Shown: positions 1,705-30,407 of the stretch, one piece after another | Position numbering within the stretch: the first letter of the stretch is position 1 | Layout: every line of letters begins with the position of its first letter | Translations under genes and position numbers: made by a program | Notes under the pieces: generated by a model | What the model saw: only the letters and a program-made list of their open reading frames with translations | Database searches by the model: none | What the model was told of the DNA's origin: nothing | DNA from: a virus | IMG/VR virus record: IMGVR_UViG_3300032083_001708 | Coordinates: 1 to 31,289 of that record | Length of the DNA: 31,289 bases | Strand: one strand, 5' to 3'

Positions 1705-2761
1705 TCAATCCCCTAAACCTATCTAACCTTACAAACTCCATAATCCAATTATCAAAATTCTTTATGTTTGATTGTAATTTATCCTTTATAAACATTGTTT
1801 GAAATTTATACTTAATCAATTGTGGAACATCACCATTAACAGCACCTTGTATTTTCATCTTCGTATGGTTTGGTATGTCTACATTGTTTAATTGCATTAG
1901 TAAATAATTTCGTTTTAACAAGTTACTACTTTTTTTTATATTTTCCAAGACTTTTATTTTTTTATCTGAATTATTTACAAAATTTATTAAATCCATCGCT
2001 GTAAAATCTTCATCTTCTGTAATTTGTGGAATGTATTTTATTATGGTTTTTAATCCAGCTCCCATAACTCCATTGATATTATCTGATTTATCTCCATCTA
2101 CAATTCTATATGTTAACATATTTCTTGATGGTAAACCAAACTCTTCCAATACTGCTTGTTTATTATATAATTTTTTCTTCGTAGGACTCCACACTTTCAC
2201 TCTATCATCTACTAATTGAATAAAGTCTTTATCCGTTGACATCAATATACAATCACTCTTTGGAAGTAATTGTTGTGAGATATAAGCCATTGTATCATCA
2301 GCTTCAATCCCATCAACTGAAACAAGGGTTAAAGGTAATTGTTCTAAATATTCAACCAACCTACCCATTTGTTGTTTCATTGATTGTTGTTCATCAGCTG
2401 GTGCTGTTCCCCAATCAACATTTCTATTTAATCTTCGTTTAACTTTACGAGTACCTTTGTATTCTGGATAGATTTTTTGTCTTCTTTTACTTCCACCTTT
2501 TCCGTCAAATACAATAATACATCTTGATGGTTTCAATATATCACAACTATATCGAACTGATTTCATAAACCCAACCATACCACCAATATGTAATCCGTCT
2601 TCGTTTAACGCAGGATTAACTGCAAACGACCTGATAAATGTGTTCAGGCCGTCTACAATCAATACTCTGTCGTTCAGATGATTTACAGCTTTGTGTGTAT
2701 CATCTTTTGTTTGGTCTAAAAAAGATAAATATTTTTCATTTAAGTCTTTTTTAGAGTTCAT
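1697..2761 (-). CDS. rnh: 5'-3' exonuclease / flap endonuclease (T4 RNase H-like)
   Basis: 354 aa. FEN/PIN-type nuclease that removes RNA primers and 5' flaps during lagging-strand maturation. Metal-binding acidic residues sit in the expected order: VDGLN (D37), VFDG (D86), GIEADD (E153, D155, D156), STDKDF (D177, D179), and VDGDKSDNI (D222, D224, D227) leading into a helix-hairpin-helix-like segment GVMGAGLKTI at 231-240. The basic stretch around 93-112 (KRRQKIYPEYKGTRKVKRR) matches the DNA-gripping arch of T4 RNase H. The ATG at 2761 has GAGGAG seven nt upstream and lies inside the end of the recombinase gene (11-nt overlap); its own stop overlaps the helicase start. Family confident. The T4 RNase H name rests on context and length. 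Confidence 0.9.
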   Translation of the reverse strand: MNSKKDLNEKYLSFLDQTKDDTHKAVNHLNDRVLIVDGLNTFIRSFAVNPALNEDGLHIGGMVGFMKSVRYSCDILKPSRCIIVFDGKGGSKRRQKIYPEYKGTRKVKRRLNRNVDWGTAPADEQQSMKQQMGRLVEYLEQLPLTLVSVDGIEADDTMAYISQQLLPKSDCILMSTDKDFIQLVDDRVKVWSPTKKKLYNKQAVLEEFGLPSRNMLTYRIVDGDKSDNINGVMGAGLKTIIKYIPQITEDEDFTAMDLINFVNNSDKKIKVLENIKKSSNLLKRNYLLMQLNNVDIPNHTKMKIQGAVNGDVPQLIKYKFQTMFIKDKLQSNIKNFDNWIMEFVRLDRFRGLNG

Positions 2762-3869
2762 CCACAGACTCCTCAGTTTCTACTACATCATCGATACCAA
2801 GTTCTTTAGAATCATATTTTAAAATACAAGCATTACAGATTAATCCGTAACAATAATCTTTTAATTCTGAATTTTCTAACATAAGTTTTTCAAAATCTTT
2901 AGATAAGAACTTGTATTCTTTAATTAATTCACCAGTTTCAAGGTCACAATGTTGTAATGTATACCAAGCACCACCAACTTTTAAAAGTTTGTGTTCTTTC
3001 ATTACTGTTAACCAACTACCAAAGTCATCAATACCTTTATCAAAGTAAAGTGGAAACTCTACAGTCCTCATTGGAGGTCCGAGACGATTCTTAATCACTT
3101 GTCCTTTGATTTTAATACCAATGGTGGTTTTGTTACCATCTTTGATTTGTCCAGCATTCTTGAATCTAACACGAGTTGATGAATGGAATGGAAGAGCCTT
3201 ACCACCACTTGTAGTCCAGGGGTCTCCAAACATTACACCAAGTTTTTGTCGTAATTGATTTGTGAAAACCAATGCAACTTTTTGTCGTGCTATCATCTGT
3301 GTTACTTTTCTCATAGCTTTTGATATGATGATTGCTTTGGCTGTTGCCCAACCATCTTTATCAAAGTCAGCATCCATTTCTTGTTTAGTAGAAGCAGCTG
3401 CTAATGAATCAACCAAGATTGTAACTAACTTATCCTTGTTTGATTCTCTGATTTTAGTAACAATTGTTTCAATAGTATCAAATATTTCTTCACAAGTTTC
3501 AAGATGTACATATAACATTTTAGTAGTATCCACACCAATAGCTCTCAAGTATTCTTGAGATACTGCTGATTCTGTATCAATGTAAACTGCTATACCATCT
3601 TGTTTTTGTGTTGAAGCCAATAGATGAGAACCTATTAGAGATTTACCACTACCCTCTAAACCATTTAATTCAGTAATCTTACCTACGGCAACACCACCAT
3701 TTGGTCTATTAGCAATTGCTAAATCTAACATAGTTGAACCAGTTGAAATCCAACCCGTTACATCTGTAGGATTACCACCTTCTTCAAGAAAGTAAGCAAC
3801 CTTTTGATGTTTGAATTGTTTATTTAGTTCATCGGCAATTATCCCAGCCAATTCGTCTTTTTCTGACAT
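2751..3869 (-). CDS. uvsX: RecA/UvsX-family recombinase
   Basis: 372 aa. ATP-dependent strand-exchange protein acting in recombination-dependent replication and repair. Walker A GLEGSGKS at 70-77, catalytic-type Glu in YIDTE (E100), Walker B ILVD at 151-154. The DNA-binding L2 region, NQLRQKLGVMFGDPWTTSGG (204-223), is very close to bacterial RecA (NQ-R-K-GVMFG-P-TT-GG) and unlike my recollection of T4 UvsX, so this protein sits on the RecA side of the family. The C-terminal tail (about 355-372) is acidic, as in RecA. It has its own leader with AGGAG before the ATG at 3869, after a 112-nt structured gap behind ssb, and is followed by overlapping nuclease and helicase genes. Functionally it would work with the ssDNA-binding protein encoded just upstream. 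Confidence 0.92.
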   Translation of the reverse strand: MSEKDELAGIIADELNKQFKHQKVAYFLEEGGNPTDVTGWISTGSTMLDLAIANRPNGGVAVGKITELNGLEGSGKSLIGSHLLASTQKQDGIAVYIDTESAVSQEYLRAIGVDTTKMLYVHLETCEEIFDTIETIVTKIRESNKDKLVTILVDSLAAASTKQEMDADFDKDGWATAKAIIISKAMRKVTQMIARQKVALVFTNQLRQKLGVMFGDPWTTSGGKALPFHSSTRVRFKNAGQIKDGNKTTIGIKIKGQVIKNRLGPPMRTVEFPLYFDKGIDDFGSWLTVMKEHKLLKVGGAWYTLQHCDLETGELIKEYKFLSKDFEKLMLENSELKDYCYGLICNACILKYDSKELGIDDVVETEESVDEL

Positions 3870-3981: not shown

Positions 3982-4746
3982 TTAATTATTGAATAAATTA
4001 TCAAATGCGTCTGAAACATCTGCTGTTGATTTAGTAGCTGTTTGTTGAGCTACTTTCTCAGTAGTGTTCGTTGGAACACTTGCTTCTGTCTCATCAGATG
4101 GATTTAAAAAGTTCTGTAAAACTTCTTTCAACTCATCATAAGTTGGTTCATTGTAAAGTTCAGTTAAATTAGACTGATTTTCAAAGATACCTTTTAACTG
4201 CTCAGCATCTTCGGTAATCGCTGTCTGATTAGGTTTAACCCTTACAGTAGTTTTACCATATTGGTTACCAGCTTCAGCAGGTGTTTGTCTATCTATACCA
4301 ATATCTCTACCATTAGTAGCATCTGTGATGTCACCATAATCAGGGTCAGCAATTACACCAAGAAGTTCTTGATATACAGTTTTACCGAATCCCCAAAATT
4401 TAACACCTTCTGATTCTTTACCACGAACTACTACAGGAGCAAAAGTTCTCATTTTAGGTTCAAGTCTTTTACCTTGAATCCATTCGTCTTTATTACCTGT
4501 TGATTTTAGTTTGTCAGCAAATTCAGCTACTGGGTCTGGTCTTCCAAATGAAAGAGGTGATAGGTAAGTTTTATTATTACCTAAGTTATAATGAAAGAAT
4601 AACTCAATGAATGGGTTATCTTTATTATGTTTGTAAGGAACAACACGAACAACTTGTTGACCTGGTTCAGGTTTCCAAAAGTTATCTTTTGTATTTGAAG
4701 TTGATTGTAATGTTGCTAGTTTGGATTTTATTGCGTCTATATCCAT
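3982..4746 (-). CDS. 32: Single-stranded DNA-binding protein (T4 gp32-like)
   Basis: 254 aa. Coats ssDNA at the fork and partners with the recombinase and helicase encoded downstream. The region NFWKPEPGQQVVRVVPY (about 22-38) followed by F-I-E-L-F-F-H-Y is typical of gp32 cores in marine T4-like phages, and K-F-W-G-F-G-K-T follows at about 116-123. The C-terminal 60 residues are low complexity and end in an acidic DVSDAFDNLFNN tail, the protein-interaction tail expected of SSBs. Oddity: the protein contains no cysteine, so the zinc site of T4 gp32 (301 aa) cannot be formed in the same way. The ATG at 4746 is preceded by AGGAG, and a sigma70-like promoter lies about 90 nt upstream. Confidence 0.88.
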   Translation of the reverse strand: MDIDAIKSKLATLQSTSNTKDNFWKPEPGQQVVRVVPYKHNKDNPFIELFFHYNLGNNKTYLSPLSFGRPDPVAEFADKLKSTGNKDEWIQGKRLEPKMRTFAPVVVRGKESEGVKFWGFGKTVYQELLGVIADPDYGDITDATNGRDIGIDRQTPAEAGNQYGKTTVRVKPNQTAITEDAEQLKGIFENQSNLTELYNEPTYDELKEVLQNFLNPSDETEASVPTNTTEKVAQQTATKSTADVSDAFDNLFNN

Positions 4747-4870: not shown

Positions 4871-5257
4871 TTATTTTTTTTCAAATTTTTTCCATTTTCC
4901 TATTGGACACTCTGCTGTAGCATAGTGAGTTTTAACATTCATAAAGCATCCACACTCTATACATCGTCCATCTTTCTTATCTGTATCGGGATTAATTTCA
5001 TCATATAATAACCTATCACACCTAATACATTCATCCCATCTTTCTTGTGCAATTTCTTGGGGGACTATAACATGCTTTCCTCTCATAAAGGCTTTCAAAC
5101 TTCTCCAATGAGTAACAGCTAAATCACGAACCATTTGAGACGTTGGTGGAAGTTTCTTTTCCATTTTCAACATATTCTCTGATTTTTTAATGTTTTTTAA
5201 CTCTTGTTCTGTAGCTTCTCTATCAATCGTTGGTATTGGTTTGAATTTAAAACTCAT
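4871..5257 (-). CDS. Small zinc-ribbon protein, function unknown
   Basis: 128 aa. The C-terminal half carries cysteines in a two-knuckle pattern: C77-x2-C80 (DECIRCDRL) and C99-x2-C102-x-C104 (GRCIECGCFMNVKTHYA), with C117 in AECPIGKW. This is the pattern of a conserved zinc-ribbon family common in T4-like marine phages. The N-terminal 60 residues are helical and charged (RDLAVTHWRSLKAFMRG). The ATG overlaps the stop of the glutaredoxin-like gene (ATGA), so the two are translated together, which may hint at a shared pathway. Zinc binding is well supported by the motif. Nucleic acid or protein binding is a guess. Confidence 0.75.
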   Translation of the reverse strand: MSFKFKPIPTIDREATEQELKNIKKSENMLKMEKKLPPTSQMVRDLAVTHWRSLKAFMRGKHVIVPQEIAQERWDECIRCDRLLYDEINPDTDKKDGRCIECGCFMNVKTHYATAECPIGKWKKFEKK

Positions 5258-5808
5258 TTTACTCCAAGATGATTCATTAGTTTTTGTAGATTATTTTCTA
5301 TGGTTTTTAATCTACCATCTAATGATTGTTTCTGTGCCTCTCTTTGTTTTTGAGCTGTTTTAAATTTATCAATTATTTGTTCTGATGTTTGTAATTCTTT
5401 TAAATGGGAATTTTCTTTTAACCATTTATTATATTTTTTCTTAAAGGATTTAATTTGTTTTTCATCAAAAAAATCAGTTGGTAGTTTTGGTGGTTTAGAT
5501 TTTGGTTTAGGTGGTTTTGGTATTTTTTCACCATCAGCCCATTTTTTTATTGTTTCTTCATCTCTATAACCACATATTGAATTTCCTGTGTCGGAATTAA
5601 CTAAAAGTGGTGTACCACATTTAATTTTAAATTTTTCTTCTATTTCTTTTTTGAATAATTCATTAGCCTTATGTGTTGTATCTAACTTAACAATATCATA
5701 ACCATTTGAATTAAGTTTATCTACAATTGGTTCTACTTTAGTGCAAAAAACACATCCAACTGAGTAAAAATAATATAAAGTGGATTCTTTTTTGGATTTT
5801 TTTGTCAT
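5254..5808 (-). CDS. Glutaredoxin/thioredoxin-fold protein with long C-terminal tail
   Basis: 184 aa. Residues 10-92 form a thioredoxin fold: beta strand LYYFYSVGC with active-site C19-V-F-C22, and the cis-proline in CGTPLLV (P67), then GYRDEETIKKW. It should reduce disulfides, for example in ribonucleotide reductase, whose genes are not in the window. After residue 95 comes a Pro/Lys-rich linker (KPPKPKSKPPKLP) and then a 70-residue helical, Lys/Gln-rich segment with coiled-coil character ending LQKLMNHLGVK. The tail roughly doubles the usual glutaredoxin length and may tether the enzyme to a partner. The downstream zinc-ribbon gene overlaps it by 4 nt. Confidence 0.8.
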   Translation of the reverse strand: MTKKSKKESTLYYFYSVGCVFCTKVEPIVDKLNSNGYDIVKLDTTHKANELFKKEIEEKFKIKCGTPLLVNSDTGNSICGYRDEETIKKWADGEKIPKPPKPKSKPPKLPTDFFDEKQIKSFKKKYNKWLKENSHLKELQTSEQIIDKFKTAQKQREAQKQSLDGRLKTIENNLQKLMNHLGVK

Positions 5809-5825: not shown

Positions 5826-6221
5826 TTAAACTTTTTCTATTTTAAATATTCTTGTATTGATTCTATTCAATCCTTCTGAATTTGTTATCAATAACATATT
5901 CTTAAAGTTTTCCCAGGGTATCATAAACTTGTTGTCTAAAACACCGTTGTTTAAATTCTTTATACATTCATTCAATGCATTGATGGTATATAATGTATTG
6001 GAATGTTTTTTTCTATGTAATGAAATCGTTCCCTCTACTTTATTATAATCTATACCACCTTGTGTATCTACATTGTATGTACAGATTAATTCATTCACAT
6101 TGTTTTCATTTTGTAATACATATACTTTACTGAATATGATTGTATATGCATCAACGATTTTCTCAATTGTTTCATCAAGATTATCTTTTGTTGTGAATGT
6201 TGCTAGTAGTTGAGATTTCAT
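5826..6221 (-). CDS. Conserved hypothetical protein
   Basis: 131 aa, unknown. It begins MKSQLLATFTTKDNLDETIE and reads as a small alpha/beta protein: a helix after an N-terminal strand, then alternating strands (KVYVLQNEN, ELICTYNV, EGTISLHRKKHS) and a C-terminal IPWENFKNMLLITNSEG segment. A purine-rich GAGAAGG lies ahead of the ATG at 6221, which is only 4 nt after the stop of the 676-aa gene, and the glutaredoxin-like gene follows 17 nt later. The regular spacing and ribosome-binding sites make it a real gene. No family could be assigned. Confidence 0.6.
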   Translation of the reverse strand: MKSQLLATFTTKDNLDETIEKIVDAYTIIFSKVYVLQNENNVNELICTYNVDTQGGIDYNKVEGTISLHRKKHSNTLYTINALNECIKNLNNGVLDNKFMIPWENFKNMLLITNSEGLNRINTRIFKIEKV

Positions 6222-6225
6222 TATT

Positions 6226-8256
6226 TTACCTTCTCAAGTCCGCTGCTGGAGTATTTGGAAACTTTATTGGTTCTTGGTCACCATAAATATCTCGTGATAC
6301 TGATTCAACATTTTTACCAAAGTTAGGAGCAACTTTCATTTCAAATTTATGTAAACCACCATACCCCTCACCATCTTCTCTAATACCAACCTCAGTAATT
6401 GGAATAACTTTATCTTGTCCTGCAACCTTAGCTCTATATTCTACCATTGGTGGGTTTGCGTCAGGATTAACCTCCAAAGATTCAACTACTTGATTCCAAT
6501 CTGAAGTTCCAAATATACCTTCCATTACTTTTTTACTTATAACAAATTCACCTAATATTATATTTTCATCACCATCTGATACTGATTTTAAAGGGAAGTT
6601 GTCTCTAACAACATTCATCACAACTTCTTTAGCCTTATCATCATTTTGTATAAATGTTGCAACTTCTTTAGCGTGTTCTTTAGCTATTAGTTTTTGTTGT
6701 TCTACAAACTCTTCACCTAATGGGTCACCTGCTTCTGTCATTAATCTACCCAAAGTTATGGATACTTTATCAATAGCTCTTTTATCTTTTTTCTTAGACC
6801 ATTTCCTTAGATTTTCTTTAATATAATCCCTACTTAAAACCAAATCAGAATTTTCGGCTAAATCTTTTTTATACTGAGATATAAAACCTTCAAATGATTC
6901 TATTGTTTTATCTTTAGTTGCTGAATCCATATCCACAGCTACTTTTAAAAGTACTTTATCAAAATTTTCAATACCATCAATATTATTCAAGTACTCACTA
7001 ATGTTCATTCTATTATTTTGATAAAAATTATCAATATTTTTTATTTGATTGTCTTTGAATGCACTAACACCTTTTTGTTGTAAATGTTGTGGTAAAATTC
7101 CTGTATCTTCAAAAACAGAGCCAATTGTTTTATTTAACAACCTTTGCCCTTTTAAACTTTGTTTTAATGATATTTCATCTTTAACTATTTTATCACCGAC
7201 TTTTACCGTGAACATAATATCTGTACTATATCCTTTTTCACCATAGTCTTGTCCTAATGCTTCAAATTCTTCTTGAATATCCCAAGCCGAACCAACTATT
7301 TCATAATCAGGTCCATGAGTGTCATACATCATTCTTAAAATAGCTGAACTATTTGCTTTAGCCGCTTTAGACCAAGTAGATGTTACAGGAATTTTTTCTC
7401 CTCTAGCTTTTGCTTTTTGTATTTGTTCATCTATGGCTCTAAAAAATTCAGCTCTTTCTTCTCTTTTCATTGTTGTAGCCATCATTGATAAAAGTTCTCC
7501 TGCATTAGCGCCTGCATTACCCGCTCCAACTTTTCCCATACCATAATAACCTGATTTAGAAGTATCACCATCTGCAGTAAAACCTTTGTCCTTATCAGTT
7601 AATCGTGTATTCATTAATCTTTCAATGAATTGTGTATATTTTTTTGGTATCTTTGGATTGTTTTTTACACTATCGGGCATTGTGAAAGTATCTGTGGTTT
7701 TATTGTTACTATTTTTCTTGATAAAGTCTTCATCACTTGTTTCCAATGGTTCACTATATACTTTACCACCAATTTTTTCTCTTTGACTATCAGCTTTTGA
7801 TTTTGGTTTATCTTCAGTATCTTTTTTATCTTTACTACTTTTACCAGTGACAGCTTTCTCTGTATCAAAATCATCTCCTGATAATTTTCCAGTATCGGTT
7901 TCTGTGTCTTGTTTAGTATCACCCTTATCATCAAGATTGGCTGCTTTTACCGCAGCTTCTTTTTCATCAGTTCCTTTTCCTTGTTCAATGTCTGAAGCAT
8001 ATTGTCTAGCTGTTTTCATTGTAATGGTTCTTGTTTTACCATCGTGTTTAAATGTTACTTTCTCATCTTCATCATCTTGTTCATTGATTAAATTTTGAAT
8101 AACTTGATAAATAACATTATTTGGTAAATTCAATTCTTCCATTGATTCACGAAGATTGTGAATATGTTCTGCGTTTTTTGGATTAGGCATTCCATCGTGA
8201 ACACGATATGCCCATTCTACTAATATGTCTTCAATGATTTCTGAAATATGTGTCAT
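6226..8256 (-). CDS. Large protein with acidic linker and possible nuclease-like core
   Basis: 676 aa. Three visible parts. (1) N-terminal helical segment, about 1-58 (EIIEDILVEWAYRVHDGMPN), predicted globular. (2) Low-complexity Asp/Lys/Thr-rich linker, about 58-195, unusual in this genome. (3) A large C-terminal part with a conserved-looking stretch at 318-372: YEIVGSAWDIQEEF, then S-T-D346-I-M-F, then K-D-E361-I-S-L-K365-Q-S. The spacing of D346 and the E/S-x-K strand resembles PD-(D/E)XK nuclease cores of the 'SLK' type. This is a tentative reading. The ATG directly follows the polymerase stop (TAAATG), so it is co-translated with the polymerase. It might be a replication-linked nuclease or an injected virion protein. 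Confidence 0.6.
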   Translation of the reverse strand: MTHISEIIEDILVEWAYRVHDGMPNPKNAEHIHNLRESMEELNLPNNVIYQVIQNLINEQDDEDEKVTFKHDGKTRTITMKTARQYASDIEQGKGTDEKEAAVKAANLDDKGDTKQDTETDTGKLSGDDFDTEKAVTGKSSKDKKDTEDKPKSKADSQREKIGGKVYSEPLETSDEDFIKKNSNNKTTDTFTMPDSVKNNPKIPKKYTQFIERLMNTRLTDKDKGFTADGDTSKSGYYGMGKVGAGNAGANAGELLSMMATTMKREERAEFFRAIDEQIQKAKARGEKIPVTSTWSKAAKANSSAILRMMYDTHGPDYEIVGSAWDIQEEFEALGQDYGEKGYSTDIMFTVKVGDKIVKDEISLKQSLKGQRLLNKTIGSVFEDTGILPQHLQQKGVSAFKDNQIKNIDNFYQNNRMNISEYLNNIDGIENFDKVLLKVAVDMDSATKDKTIESFEGFISQYKKDLAENSDLVLSRDYIKENLRKWSKKKDKRAIDKVSITLGRLMTEAGDPLGEEFVEQQKLIAKEHAKEVATFIQNDDKAKEVVMNVVRDNFPLKSVSDGDENIILGEFVISKKVMEGIFGTSDWNQVVESLEVNPDANPPMVEYRAKVAGQDKVIPITEVGIREDGEGYGGLHKFEMKVAPNFGKNVESVSRDIYGDQEPIKFPNTPAADLRR

Positions 8257-9531
8257 TTATAACCTTTCCGTAATGTTTTGCATTTCACCATAGTTTAAAC
8301 CCATTTTTGATTTGGTGTAAAAATAAGGTTCTGTATCACCTGGTACATCGGTTTTAACTTCTAATATTCTTTTGATTTCTTTCAAAGTTTCAACTCCATC
8401 TTGTTTTGAAAAATCGAATAGGAAACTATCATATCCGTATAAAACCAATTTAGTCTTCTTATCTAATAAATAGTCTTGAATTAATAAAATCTTCTTAACA
8501 TTCAATTCTGTTTCCAATGCTTGAATTAAATAATTAAACAATTTACTCTTATTCAAATCATTGTAATTTTCTAATACTATTCTCCGTCTATAAATATCAG
8601 TTAAAATGTATTTATTCTTATTTATTTCATCCCATTTGTTATTTATAAATTTGTATGTTAAATCAAAAAATGGAACTTTTTCTCTGGTTTGTTTATCAAT
8701 TCCACCATATAATAATTGAAAACTTCTTTGTTTTGATTCCTCATATGAACATTCATAGTGTTTAGCCAAATGTTCGTGAACTGAATCTTTACCAAAATCA
8801 TACTTAACCAATTGTGAAATTATTCTTAAATGATATGCATCATAATCCATTTCAACCAAATAATCGTTTTCAGCCACTATAGCTTTTCTCTTTTCAGGTG
8901 GTAGAGCTGCAAAGTTAACTGAACCGAATGAATTACTTGGACGACCTGTTGTTGTCCATAGATTGTAATTACTATATAACTTACTATCTGATATGTGTTT
9001 TCTTACTCGTTCATCAAATATATCACATACATCATTTGATACCTTTACACCTTTTTTTTCAATTGAACCAAAGGCTTCTATGAAATCATTCATATAATAA
9101 TCATCAGTTCCACCAACATATGGTCTAACCATCTTCTCATAAACATCACTACAATACTCATTATGTTTCGATAATGGTATGATTTCGTTAAGTTTTTTTA
9201 CATTGTAGAACTTATTACTCAAGAAATCTATTGCATTATTACGAACATTGTTTTCAAATGGTTTACCTGTATCTATCCAATGTAAGAAATTCATATCCAC
9301 AACAGTGTCGAATTTATAAAAATGATTCAATAATTTTTTATCACGAGTTAAAATCGTATAATCATTTAACCATTTGTAATCCTCCATCATTTTATCTGAA
9401 TCAGGATGTTGTTCAATGATAAACATTGGTTCTTTTTTGGATATTTCTTTACACCATAGTGCTGATAATCCATTATCTTTATGTAATGGATGTAAGAATG
9501 GTTCTTTAAATATAGGTATAATACAATACAT
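8257..9531 (-). CDS. Short, divergent family A DNA polymerase
   Basis: 424 aa. PolA-type motifs are present in order: TTTGRPSN (193-200, the T-x-T-G-R-x-S motif), motif A EMDYDAYHLR (227-236; D229 = catalytic Asp), motif B KQRSFQLLYGG (267-277; K267, F271, Y275, G276 at the usual spacing), the N-x3-Q helix (N333, Q337), and motif C LYGYDSF (364-370; D368 = second catalytic Asp). Oddities: the usual motif A Glu is H234, the motif B Arg is Y263, and motif C HDE reads YDS. The polymerase domain (about 140-424) is shorter than Klenow, and the first 140 residues show no clear 3'-5' exonuclease D-x-E. T4-like phages normally use a family B polymerase (gp43), not seen in this window. It may be the replicase, an accessory or a translesion enzyme. 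Confidence 0.85.
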   Translation of the reverse strand: MYCIIPIFKEPFLHPLHKDNGLSALWCKEISKKEPMFIIEQHPDSDKMMEDYKWLNDYTILTRDKKLLNHFYKFDTVVDMNFLHWIDTGKPFENNVRNNAIDFLSNKFYNVKKLNEIIPLSKHNEYCSDVYEKMVRPYVGGTDDYYMNDFIEAFGSIEKKGVKVSNDVCDIFDERVRKHISDSKLYSNYNLWTTTGRPSNSFGSVNFAALPPEKRKAIVAENDYLVEMDYDAYHLRIISQLVKYDFGKDSVHEHLAKHYECSYEESKQRSFQLLYGGIDKQTREKVPFFDLTYKFINNKWDEINKNKYILTDIYRRRIVLENYNDLNKSKLFNYLIQALETELNVKKILLIQDYLLDKKTKLVLYGYDSFLFDFSKQDGVETLKEIKRILEVKTDVPGDTEPYFYTKSKMGLNYGEMQNITERL

Positions 9532-19260: not shown

Positions 19261-21516
19261 TTACTCTGGAAAAGAAGCACCAGTTGGTTGTATTGTAAAG
19301 TCTAATACAATAAACTCAGCAGTTCTTGTAGGTTGTAAGAATAATTGTCCGACTAATTGATTTCTATCAATTGTATCAGGTGTATTATTCGTTTCATCCA
19401 TCACTACTCTGAATGCACTCAATCCACTTTGTGATTGAACTTGTTCTAAGAATGGATTAACAATTCCTAAGAATCTTCTTCGTGTTGCCGATGTATTTTG
19501 TTCAAATACAAGGAATCTTGAAGAAGAAGCTATGAACTTCTTAACTCTGATTAATAATCGTCTTACATTGATTCTATCCAACGCACTTGCTTTTTTCTGT
19601 AATGTTTTTTGTCCAAACACCGTTACCCCTTGTCCAGGGAATGTTGCGATTGGATTAATATTACTATCATATAAATCATCACGATTACCTTGAGTTAGTT
19701 TTCTCTCAGCTTGAATAGCAGTTGTAATTCCACCACGATTCAATCCAGCAGGAGCGAACCACGGGTGTGCAACTCTATCATTGAATGCGTAAACACCACC
19801 TAATACTACTGATGGTGGCACCCATCTTTGAGTTCCAGCAACTTGTGAATCAGGTACTTTAACCCATGGCCAATACATAGCTGCGAAGTTTGAATCTCTA
19901 GCTTCACCTCTTGTAGTAGCTGCTGTTAATGTTGAAGCATAAGGAACCGGGTCAATAATTGCAAAACAATCACCTCTTGATTCACATACATCAATAGCTT
20001 TAGCCGTAATAGAAGAATGTAAAGAGTCTATAATACCTGGCATTAAGATTAAATTAATATCAAATTCATCTTGGTTTGCAAGTAAGTCAAGAGCTTCTTC
20101 ATATGCATTTTTACCATCATCTGCTACAGTTGGGTCAAATCCTTGTGAATTTTGTGCTACGATGTTTTCATAAAATACTGCTCTAGGAGCCCGAGTAGAA
20201 TCACCATTAAAATGTCCTAAAGCGTTAAATCCACTATGTCCATCTGAAGCACCAGTGAATCCACCATTTAGTGAACCACTACCAACTTGAGGTAATGATT
20301 GAGATATATGACCACCATTTACAGGTATGTCACTTACATTCCCATTCTCATCTAAATAATCAATTGTAGGTGTACTAACACTTTTAACTCTTACAAATCT
20401 TGAAGCGTTTGCAAATGAACCAGTTAATTGTAAGTATTTTGTACTTCCCTCTGTTTTAACTTGTTGTTTTTGGTCTCCAATAACTTTTGAAATAAAGTTA
20501 GGTGAATTAGGGTCTAATGTTATATTATTAAATGATTCAAGTATTTGTTTTCTTTTAACATTATCATTACCAGCCCTAATTGTTAAATTAAAAGTACCTT
20601 TTTTATCATTTTTAGAAACAACTTCATATCTAACATTATGTTTTGAACCACTAACTAAAACATTATTTACTCTAGCAGTTGCATTACCATTATTCATTAT
20701 TGTACCATCAGCTAATGTTTCTAATGTGAAACAAGTTGTAGTAGTTCCAGCAGAAACAGTACCACCAGTAATGTTAAATGAACCACCTTTACCTGCTACA
20801 CCACCACCAACTCCAGAACCTGCCGGAGCAGTTGTAAATGAACTTGGAGCACCAGCAGAAGCTGTTAGGAATGTAGTATTATTTGCAGCTGTTCCTGCTA
20901 ATGAAGCCGTAAGTGCTAATTGCCCATTTGATTGTGAAACTGCTGTCACATTTAATCCTGAAACAGCGTTAATCTCAGTTACAAGATTGGTTATATGTGC
21001 TCCTCTCGTAGCACCATTGACAAAGAATCTGATTGAATCATCAGATGAATCTCCACCACCATCACCAGAAGCTATGAATTTAAATTCACTACTTCCTTGT
21101 GTTATTTTATAAACTTCTCCAATACCTGTTTTAAATGTAGTTGCAGATACAGAACCAGTAGCTTTATTGACACCAGATGTTACGCTTGAATTTGTAGTAA
21201 CAACATCAGCGGTAGCTGGTCCAAAACCTTGTGAACCATCTGCCATTATTCTAACAACAGTTAGTGTGTCTGAATTTTTTAAATATTCTTCAGCTGCATG
21301 TGAGGTTAAGAATTGGACTGAATCCGAACCCGTTCTAAACGTATCTCCAAATTTCGCTTGGAAATCAGAAAATGATGTTACAACGGTTGGGATTCCTGCA
21401 GGACCTTTAAGTGTTGGTCCAATGAGTGCAGCTCCAATATCAGCCACAGCGGAAGGTAAAAACGTCTGGTCTATTTCATTTGTAAATACACCAGGTGAAA
21501 TTATTTTTTCGGCCAT
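19261..21516 (-). CDS. 18: Contractile tail sheath protein (gp18)
   Basis: 751 aa (T4 gp18 is 659). Starts ISPGVFTNEIDQTF, then DIGAALIGPTLKGPAGIPTV and F-S-D-F-Q-A-K-F-G, the classic N-terminal sheath signature. The C-terminal half (AMYWPWVKVPDSQVAGTQRW, VPPS, FNDRVAHPWFAPAGLNRGG, LLIRVKKFIASSSRFLVFEQ) is the conserved sheath core used for interlocking subunits. Between about 105 and 260 there is a Gly/Ser/Thr/Ala-rich insertion (GAHITNLVTEINAVSGLNVT, NGQLALTASLAGTAANN) that looks like a surface domain and accounts for the extra length. AGGAG precedes the ATG. The unit is bounded upstream by the repeated element and downstream by a terminator. Confidence 0.95.
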   Translation of the reverse strand: MAEKIISPGVFTNEIDQTFLPSAVADIGAALIGPTLKGPAGIPTVVTSFSDFQAKFGDTFRTGSDSVQFLTSHAAEEYLKNSDTLTVVRIMADGSQGFGPATADVVTTNSSVTSGVNKATGSVSATTFKTGIGEVYKITQGSSEFKFIASGDGGGDSSDDSIRFFVNGATRGAHITNLVTEINAVSGLNVTAVSQSNGQLALTASLAGTAANNTTFLTASAGAPSSFTTAPAGSGVGGGVAGKGGSFNITGGTVSAGTTTTCFTLETLADGTIMNNGNATARVNNVLVSGSKHNVRYEVVSKNDKKGTFNLTIRAGNDNVKRKQILESFNNITLDPNSPNFISKVIGDQKQQVKTEGSTKYLQLTGSFANASRFVRVKSVSTPTIDYLDENGNVSDIPVNGGHISQSLPQVGSGSLNGGFTGASDGHSGFNALGHFNGDSTRAPRAVFYENIVAQNSQGFDPTVADDGKNAYEEALDLLANQDEFDINLILMPGIIDSLHSSITAKAIDVCESRGDCFAIIDPVPYASTLTAATTRGEARDSNFAAMYWPWVKVPDSQVAGTQRWVPPSVVLGGVYAFNDRVAHPWFAPAGLNRGGITTAIQAERKLTQGNRDDLYDSNINPIATFPGQGVTVFGQKTLQKKASALDRINVRRLLIRVKKFIASSSRFLVFEQNTSATRRRFLGIVNPFLEQVQSQSGLSAFRVVMDETNNTPDTIDRNQLVGQLFLQPTRTAEFIVLDFTIQPTGASFPE

Positions 21517-29271: not shown

Positions 29272-30312
29272 TTATTTAACTAAACCAGCAAGTTTTTTGA
29301 ACCTGTTAGCAACTTGAACCTCTTCAGAAATCACTTTACGAGATTCTGTAGATGGTTTAGTTGATGCAACAGGAGCACTAGCTGATTCACTAATTGATTT
29401 TTTTGTTACGATTGAACTATTATCACCAAACTGTTCTGCAAGTGTAGAATAAACAAGTTTAATCTCTCTTGTAGTTTGAGCTCTGTCAAATGTTTCAACC
29501 ACTTTAAGTTTTTGATTGTTATCTAATGAATAAGATTTAAATAATTTATTAGTAAATAACAATTTAGCATTCAGAATGTTAACTTCGTGAAGTTTGTCTT
29601 TCAAGAAATGAACTGCTTCTTTGTACTCTTTTAATTCAGCTTCTAAAGAAGATTCTTTCATACCAGTTTTACCTTTACCGATACCTGATGATACATCAGT
29701 ATTATCTTCTTTATTGTCACCTTTACCAATTCCAGATGATTTGTCAAGTTCTTCATCGACTTCGTCTTTGTCGTCCTCGTCATCTTCTTCAGTAAGAGCA
29801 GCTTCATCGATTTCATACTCTTCTTCAACAGTTTCTTCAGATTCATGCATACCTTCTTCAGCTTCATCTTCATCATCGTCTTCAGTTAATTCAGACTCTA
29901 ACTCTTTAATGATAGCTTCTAAGTCAAGATTGCTTTCATCCATTTCTTCATCTTCGTCATGCATTCCTTCTTCAGCGTCGTCGTGCTCGCCTTCGTCATG
30001 CATACCTTCTTCACGTTCATCACCTTCTTCAGCTTCGTCATCGTGTTCACCTTCCATAGGTGCACGCATTTCTTCAGCTTCATCATCGTGTTCACCTTCT
30101 TCACGCTCTTCACCTTCTTCATGCTCACCTTCTTCTTTTTCATCATGACCAAATTCTTCAACTTCGTCATCTTCTTCTTCTTTAAGTTTAGCAGAAAGCA
30201 TAGATTTGATTTGGGGTGTGAATGCTTCTTCTAAAGCCATTTTAGCATTTTCTAACGCAGTTTCTCTAACTGCTTTAGCATCTGCTATAGCTTCTTTTAA
30301 AATATCTCCCAT
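29272..30312 (-). CDS. 22: Prohead core scaffold protein (gp22-like)
   Basis: 346 aa from ATG 30312, chosen because GAGGAG lies seven nt upstream; a longer in-frame GTG at 30387 is rejected. N-terminal helix MGDILKEAIADAKAVRETAL leads to an extremely acidic Glu/Asp/His/Gly low-complexity region (about 48-200, repeats of the EGEHDDEAEE and EEGMHDE kind). The C-terminal part, LKEYKEAVHFLKDKLHEVN then N-A-K-L-L-F-T-N-K-L-F and Q-K-L-K-V-V-E-T-F-D-R-A, is the conserved helical domain of gp22 scaffolds. It should form the internal core on which gp23 assembles and then be digested by the prohead protease, which is not in this window. It lies immediately upstream of gp23, as in T4. Confidence 0.88.
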   Translation of the reverse strand: MGDILKEAIADAKAVRETALENAKMALEEAFTPQIKSMLSAKLKEEEDDEVEEFGHDEKEEGEHEEGEEREEGEHDDEAEEMRAPMEGEHDDEAEEGDEREEGMHDEGEHDDAEEGMHDEDEEMDESNLDLEAIIKELESELTEDDDEDEAEEGMHESEETVEEEYEIDEAALTEEDDEDDKDEVDEELDKSSGIGKGDNKEDNTDVSSGIGKGKTGMKESSLEAELKEYKEAVHFLKDKLHEVNILNAKLLFTNKLFKSYSLDNNQKLKVVETFDRAQTTREIKLVYSTLAEQFGDNSSIVTKKSISESASAPVASTKPSTESRKVISEEVQVANRFKKLAGLVK

Positions 30313-30376
30313 GATATTTCTCCTCAATGTATTTTTTGGAATAAGTTTATTTGGAAACTTAATAAATGTTAAGTTA

Positions 30377-30407
30377 TATTTAGACACCGTAAAAGGGTAG
30401 ACGGTGT
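30377..30407 (-). promoter_or_regulatory. Leader of the scaffold/capsid unit: hairpin and CTAAATA box
   Basis: The 135-nt gap upstream of the scaffold gene has an inverted repeat ACACCGT (30384-30390) with ACGGTGT (30401-30407), loop 10 nt, followed on the minus strand by CTAAATA (30383-30377), which resembles a T4-type late box in the sense direction. There is no T-run after the hairpin, so it is not a terminator. None of the seven 16-bp elements lies here. Confidence 0.4.

Follow-up and report, generated by a model that had tools for sequence, protein, structure and literature searches.

The window analysed here is a stretch of 31,289 nucleotides that covers a whole 31-kb virus record, which is itself a fragment. 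On its minus strand, positions 8257-9531 encode a small family A DNA polymerase of the divPolA1 type (424 aa), an assignment that combines the open reading frame, Pfam and PHROG matches, alignment, an AlphaFold2 model and a fold match. The reading frame proposed at this place by the first-pass annotation, which had worked from the sequence alone, is real: the plus strand is full of stops and the frame is open only on the minus strand. The gene evolves with dN/dS of 0.12-0.27 between relatives and is thus under purifying selection.

The polymerase heads a replication operon lying entirely on the minus strand. It is followed, in terms of gene order, by a variable 676-aa protein (6226-8256), which ranges from 533 to 676 aa among relatives and matched nothing in the phage records. 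Then come a 131-aa protein without assigned function, hereafter p131 (5826-6221), picked out by its strict co-occurrence with the polymerase, a gp32-like single-strand DNA binding protein (3982-4746, PHROG/Pfam), a UvsX-like recombinase (2751-3869, PHROG), an RNase H / 5'-3' exonuclease (1697-2761, PHROG/Pfam) and a gp41 / DnaB-like replicative helicase (349-1704, PHROG). The order polymerase-(variable)-p131-gp32-UvsX-RNase H-gp41 is fixed. These PHROG and Pfam matches, together with the homology of gp18, gp19 and gp23 to those of Flavobacterium phage immuto, bear out the earlier description of the genome as T4-like. The RNase H of the window shares its nuclease family (PF02739) with the N-terminal domain of Pol I, so that the phage may rely on something like a split Pol I. 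In the operon there is also a thioredoxin-like protein (5254-5808), extended by a long stretch at its C-terminus. A T7-style partnership between thioredoxin and the polymerase was considered and rejected as a general cofactor, since the thioredoxin gene was detected only in the closest relatives. Elsewhere in the window, upstream of the gp23-like capsid gene, a 371-aa protein (29272-30387) includes an extended, strongly acidic segment that resembles a repeat (HDDEAEEG).

Sequence matches of the window polymerase to known families are faint. The Pfam DNA_pol_A model (PF00476) gives 2.1e-5 and 24.1 bits, under the gathering cut-off of 34.3, and PHROG 17 ("DNA polymerase") gives 2.3e-8. A search of the PDB sequences with the single window protein returned no match, and a search with the family profile returned marginal PolA matches only. 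The AlphaFold2 model (pLDDT 84.4, pTM 0.86) has as its best PDB fold match the Bst Pol I large fragment, with a Z of 25.6 across 392 residues, which puts the PolA fold beyond chance, and all fold matches among those listed are family A DNA polymerases. Identity in structural alignments between this family and PolAs is about 14%, a level at which a tree of the family among all PolAs would not be reliable. Since the protein has the Pol I fold and its homolog in immuto passes PF00476 (43.9 bits, above the cut-off), we place it in family A.

The immuto homolog belongs to divPolA1, a family to which Yutin et al. 2024 (PMC11348598) gave its name on the basis of 14 phages, immuto and its relatives. 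It is described there as an extra polymerase found beside a regular PolA, PolB or PolC, with a truncated thumb, an inactivated exonuclease and a conserved replication neighbourhood (PMC11348598). By homology and architecture the window protein is a new member of this published family: it is 33.5% identical to the immuto divPolA1 over 89% of its length (E 3e-54), and it shares the catalytic residues of the palm, the truncated thumb and the downstream gp32-UvsX-RNase H-gp41 genes. The accompanying regular polymerase, a PolB, was seen in relatives whose copy is 84-90% identical, not in the window fragment. The window copy differs from the described ones in belonging to a separate, mostly marine lineage, in which its relatives have PolB.

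The active-site residues named by the first-pass annotation are all correct (D229, H234, Y263, K267, F271, Y275 and Y367-D368-S369). In the family alignment, the TTGRPSN motif lies at 8932-8952 (residues 194-200), motif A at 8818-8853 (residues 227-238, with D229 and H234), motif B at 8704-8745 (residues 263-276, with Y263, K267, F271 and Y275) and motif C at 8410-8442 (residues 364-374, with Y367-D368-S369), all on the minus strand. Profile and family alignments show that much of the Pol I active site is kept: D229 corresponds to D705, K267 to K758, F271 to F762, Y275 to Y766, Q337 to Q849 and D368 to D882. The Arg of the TGR motif is also present (R197), and by eye H252 lies at the place of H734. 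Three elements are changed relative to Pol I, i.e. E710 is replaced by H234, R754 by Y263 and HDE by YDS. These changes recur throughout the family. Among distinct relatives, the two catalytic Asp are conserved in 153/153 (D229) and 150/150 (D368), and the residue at the Glu710 position is His in 153/153. Motif C reads YD(S/A) in all of about 150. Position 263, in a set of similar size, holds Tyr in 140 sequences; the remainder have V, E, Q or I there, and none has Arg. The Asp pair and the active-site Lys, Phe, Tyr and Gln do not vary, even in relatives with as little as 30% identity. Judged from the alignments, the unusual residues are a signature of the divPolA1 family. The suggestion of a specialised polymerase with an altered active site is supported as regards a PolA whose active site is altered yet conserved, and is plausible. 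In Klenow, Glu710 contributes to sugar discrimination, and its replacement by His leaves a relaxed choice of sugar possible. A text search of the literature for the Klenow residues returned nothing.

Of a standard Pol I large fragment, one part is missing and another appears decayed. In the divPolA1 family, 21-39 residues separate the Gly of the conserved IExxG motif from the TGR Arg, against 123-127 in cellular Pol I (E. coli and five others), so that the thumb, about 100 residues, is missing; the site of its absence, deduced from this spacing, maps to 8953-9051 on the minus strand (residues 161-193). The thumb's absence had been overlooked in the first-pass annotation. Upstream of it in the gene lies an apparently degenerate 3'-5' exonuclease domain (9142-9531, minus strand, residues 1-130), recognised from a fold match starting at residue 1, the profile alignment and residue counts. 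The family does not conserve the positions equivalent to D355 and D501. D64 aligns with D424 and is Asp in 46 of 57 sequences, and residue 10 is nearly always acidic; the two may be remnants of D424 and E357, respectively. The retention of D64 in the window contrasts with the representatives presented in the description of the family, where all three Asp are replaced (PMC11348598). The window polymerase has no evident proofreading site.

The comparison with the large fragments of E. coli and Bst Pol I can be put as follows. The palm and fingers fold, TGR, the motif A Asp, Lys758, Phe762, Tyr766, Gln849 and the motif C Asp are shared, whereas the window protein has no thumb, no evident proofreading site, shorter fingers, His for Glu710, no Arg754 and YDS for HDE. 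The divPolA2 of barbaviruses, as described by the same authors, is likewise an extra, diverged and thumbless PolA in phages also having PolB, but it has an unrelated N-terminal domain, no exonuclease domain and variable neighbourhoods, unlike the fixed one found here (PMC11348598). African swine fever virus (ASFV) DNA polymerase X, presented as a viral gap-filling enzyme without a thumb, offers an analogy for how a thumbless polymerase can work; it belongs to family X and no homology is claimed (PMC5330486).

The polymerase is consistently accompanied by p131. It lies 0-5 kb downstream of divPolA1, on the same strand, at every locus with room for it. Among such loci p131 is present at 96/96 divPolA1 loci and divPolA1 at 100/100 p131 loci, counts that are not independent, since many of these loci are related to one another and a subset of them went into both profiles. 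Still, no information on the polymerase entered the scan for p131 in the viral collection. Among 50,697 phage records, those matched by p131 are exactly those matched by divPolA1, 6 in number, of which four are near-identical immuto records, leaving three lineages; for comparison, the neighbouring gp32 and RNase H match 118 and 1656 of these records. The protein is 43-92% identical among relatives, carries a basic motif (TISLHRKK.TN.LYTINALN) and has a predicted structure with pLDDT 94.5. Comparison with Pfam and PHROGs gave nothing convincing, and the fold search gave no confident relative: the highest Z, 6.9, was to ACT-like domains, covers some 65 residues and falls in the noise range of the tool.

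Does this polymerase replicate the phage? The first-pass annotation had raised the replacement of gp43, the T4 replicase, as one of two readings, and the position of the gene, which leads the gp32-UvsX-RNase H-gp41 operon, together with the lack of PolB in the window itself, would seem to favour it. Yet the window is only a fragment and the absence of gp43 from it is therefore uninformative. Two longer contigs with close copies of the polymerase, G001 (67 kb, 90% identical) and G002 (39 kb, 84% identical), have the same operon and, downstream, a PolB of 834 or 841 aa followed by gp45-like and gp44 genes. The 834-aa PolB shows the motifs DIE, KIVLNSLYG and DTDS; T4 gp43 matches the PolB of G001 at 9e-67 and the T4 gp44 match is at 4e-32. 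T4 gp45 used as a query found no match, and the gp45-like assignment comes from size and gene order. PolB is present in 10 of the 14 large carrier contigs, and a PolC match was found in two of the remaining four, one of them a short piece at a contig edge. PolB also occurs in Microcystis phage Mel-JY01, for which a literature search found no paper, and in the 484-kb LR756508. The complete genome of immuto has no PolB; its main enzyme is a second PolA of 778 aa, full-length, whose exonuclease residues look intact in alignment. With the thumb gone and no proofreading site evident as well, we consider it extremely improbable that divPolA1 took over from gp43 as this phage's replicase, a claim refuted in the 84-90% identical relatives by PolB, gp45-like and gp44 genes on the same contig. 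The first-pass annotation had named an ordinary gp43 combined with a loss of polymerase activity as one outcome that would speak against its reading: the former was found in close relatives, and of the latter there was no sign. A role of divPolA1 as a replacement for the primase was also considered and is unlikely, as immuto and LR756508 have Toprim primase-type matches and Mel-JY01 has one below the threshold.

We favour another reading, which the sequence and the structural model make reasonably probable: this divPolA1, probably active, thumbless and made of palm, fingers and a degenerate exonuclease, would serve as an accessory enzyme of the T4-like replication and recombination module rather than as its replicase. 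Gap filling seems its likeliest task, since the absence of the thumb predicts a weak hold on duplex DNA and the addition of few nucleotides per binding, i.e. low processivity. Short gaps might be filled once RNase H has removed RNA primers or, alternatively, in UvsX-dependent repair. We infer this role from the architecture of the protein and from its neighbours, and the conserved replication operon could be equally compatible with a role at the fork, which is what Yutin et al. suggest (PMC11348598). In the accessory role, p131 would probably bind divPolA1 or its substrate and thereby compensate for the lost grip on DNA. One might speculate further that the two make up a two-protein polymerase, in which p131 replaces the thumb or clamps the substrate and the His alters the sugar or DNA end that is accepted. 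This is a tentative idea, more doubtful than probable, but if true it would be a new way to build a family A polymerase.

Two other readings were weighed. The protein might be a working enzyme with a changed choice of substrate (ribonucleotides, primer making or damaged template), brought about by His at the Glu710 sugar gate and YDS for HDE. The invariance of these changes among distinct relatives, His in all of them and motif C always YD(S/A), indicates that they were selected, and in single-subunit RNA polymerases such as that of T7 the motif C Asp is likewise followed by Ser. Still, the family resembles DNA polymerases in retaining the equivalents of F762, Y766 and K758, the top PDB matches among those listed are all DNA polymerases, and primase-type genes occur in complete carriers, so we regard this explanation as unlikely. 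Conversely, with the thumb, Glu710 and the motif B Arg all gone, the protein could have lost catalysis altogether and now play a structural or regulatory role within the replication complex; indeed, loss of this Arg and Glu710 could weaken DNA synthesis. But an inactive protein would not need invariant active-site residues, and here the two metal-binding Asp, like the active-site Lys, Phe, Tyr and Gln, are retained down to 30% identity, which makes a dead enzyme distinctly improbable.

DivPolA1 was confirmed in at least 589 viral contigs, many from marine samples, and an extra polymerase is thus carried by at least several hundred. It is a natural test of a minimal family A polymerase, with the catalytic core kept, the thumb dropped, no proofreading site evident and the sugar-choice position of Pol I changed. 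Relative to the passages on divPolA1 in the description of the family, our additions are the signature residues, the measurement of the missing thumb and the strictly co-occurring p131 (PMC11348598). With p131, the diverged extra polymerase becomes a two-component system that can be tested and that persists with PolA, PolB or PolC as replicase.

Some side observations deserve mention. In Mel-JY01, the gene at 55792-56832 (20078-21118 of our locus L083) is annotated as "DNA polymerase I" and is actually an RNase H / 5' nuclease, while the PolA-like gene at 50397-51623 is annotated as hypothetical. A contig of a Rickettsiaceae MAG (L114) encodes a small PolA-like protein, also of 424 aa, whose motif A is ordinary (DYSSLEP) and whose thumb spacing is short; it apparently belongs to a different family. 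Finally, divPolA1 was found on contigs of bacterial MAGs (L104-L108; Rickettsiaceae, Flavobacteriales, Winogradskyella), and those with phage-like gene order (L104-L106) are probably phage contigs binned with their host.
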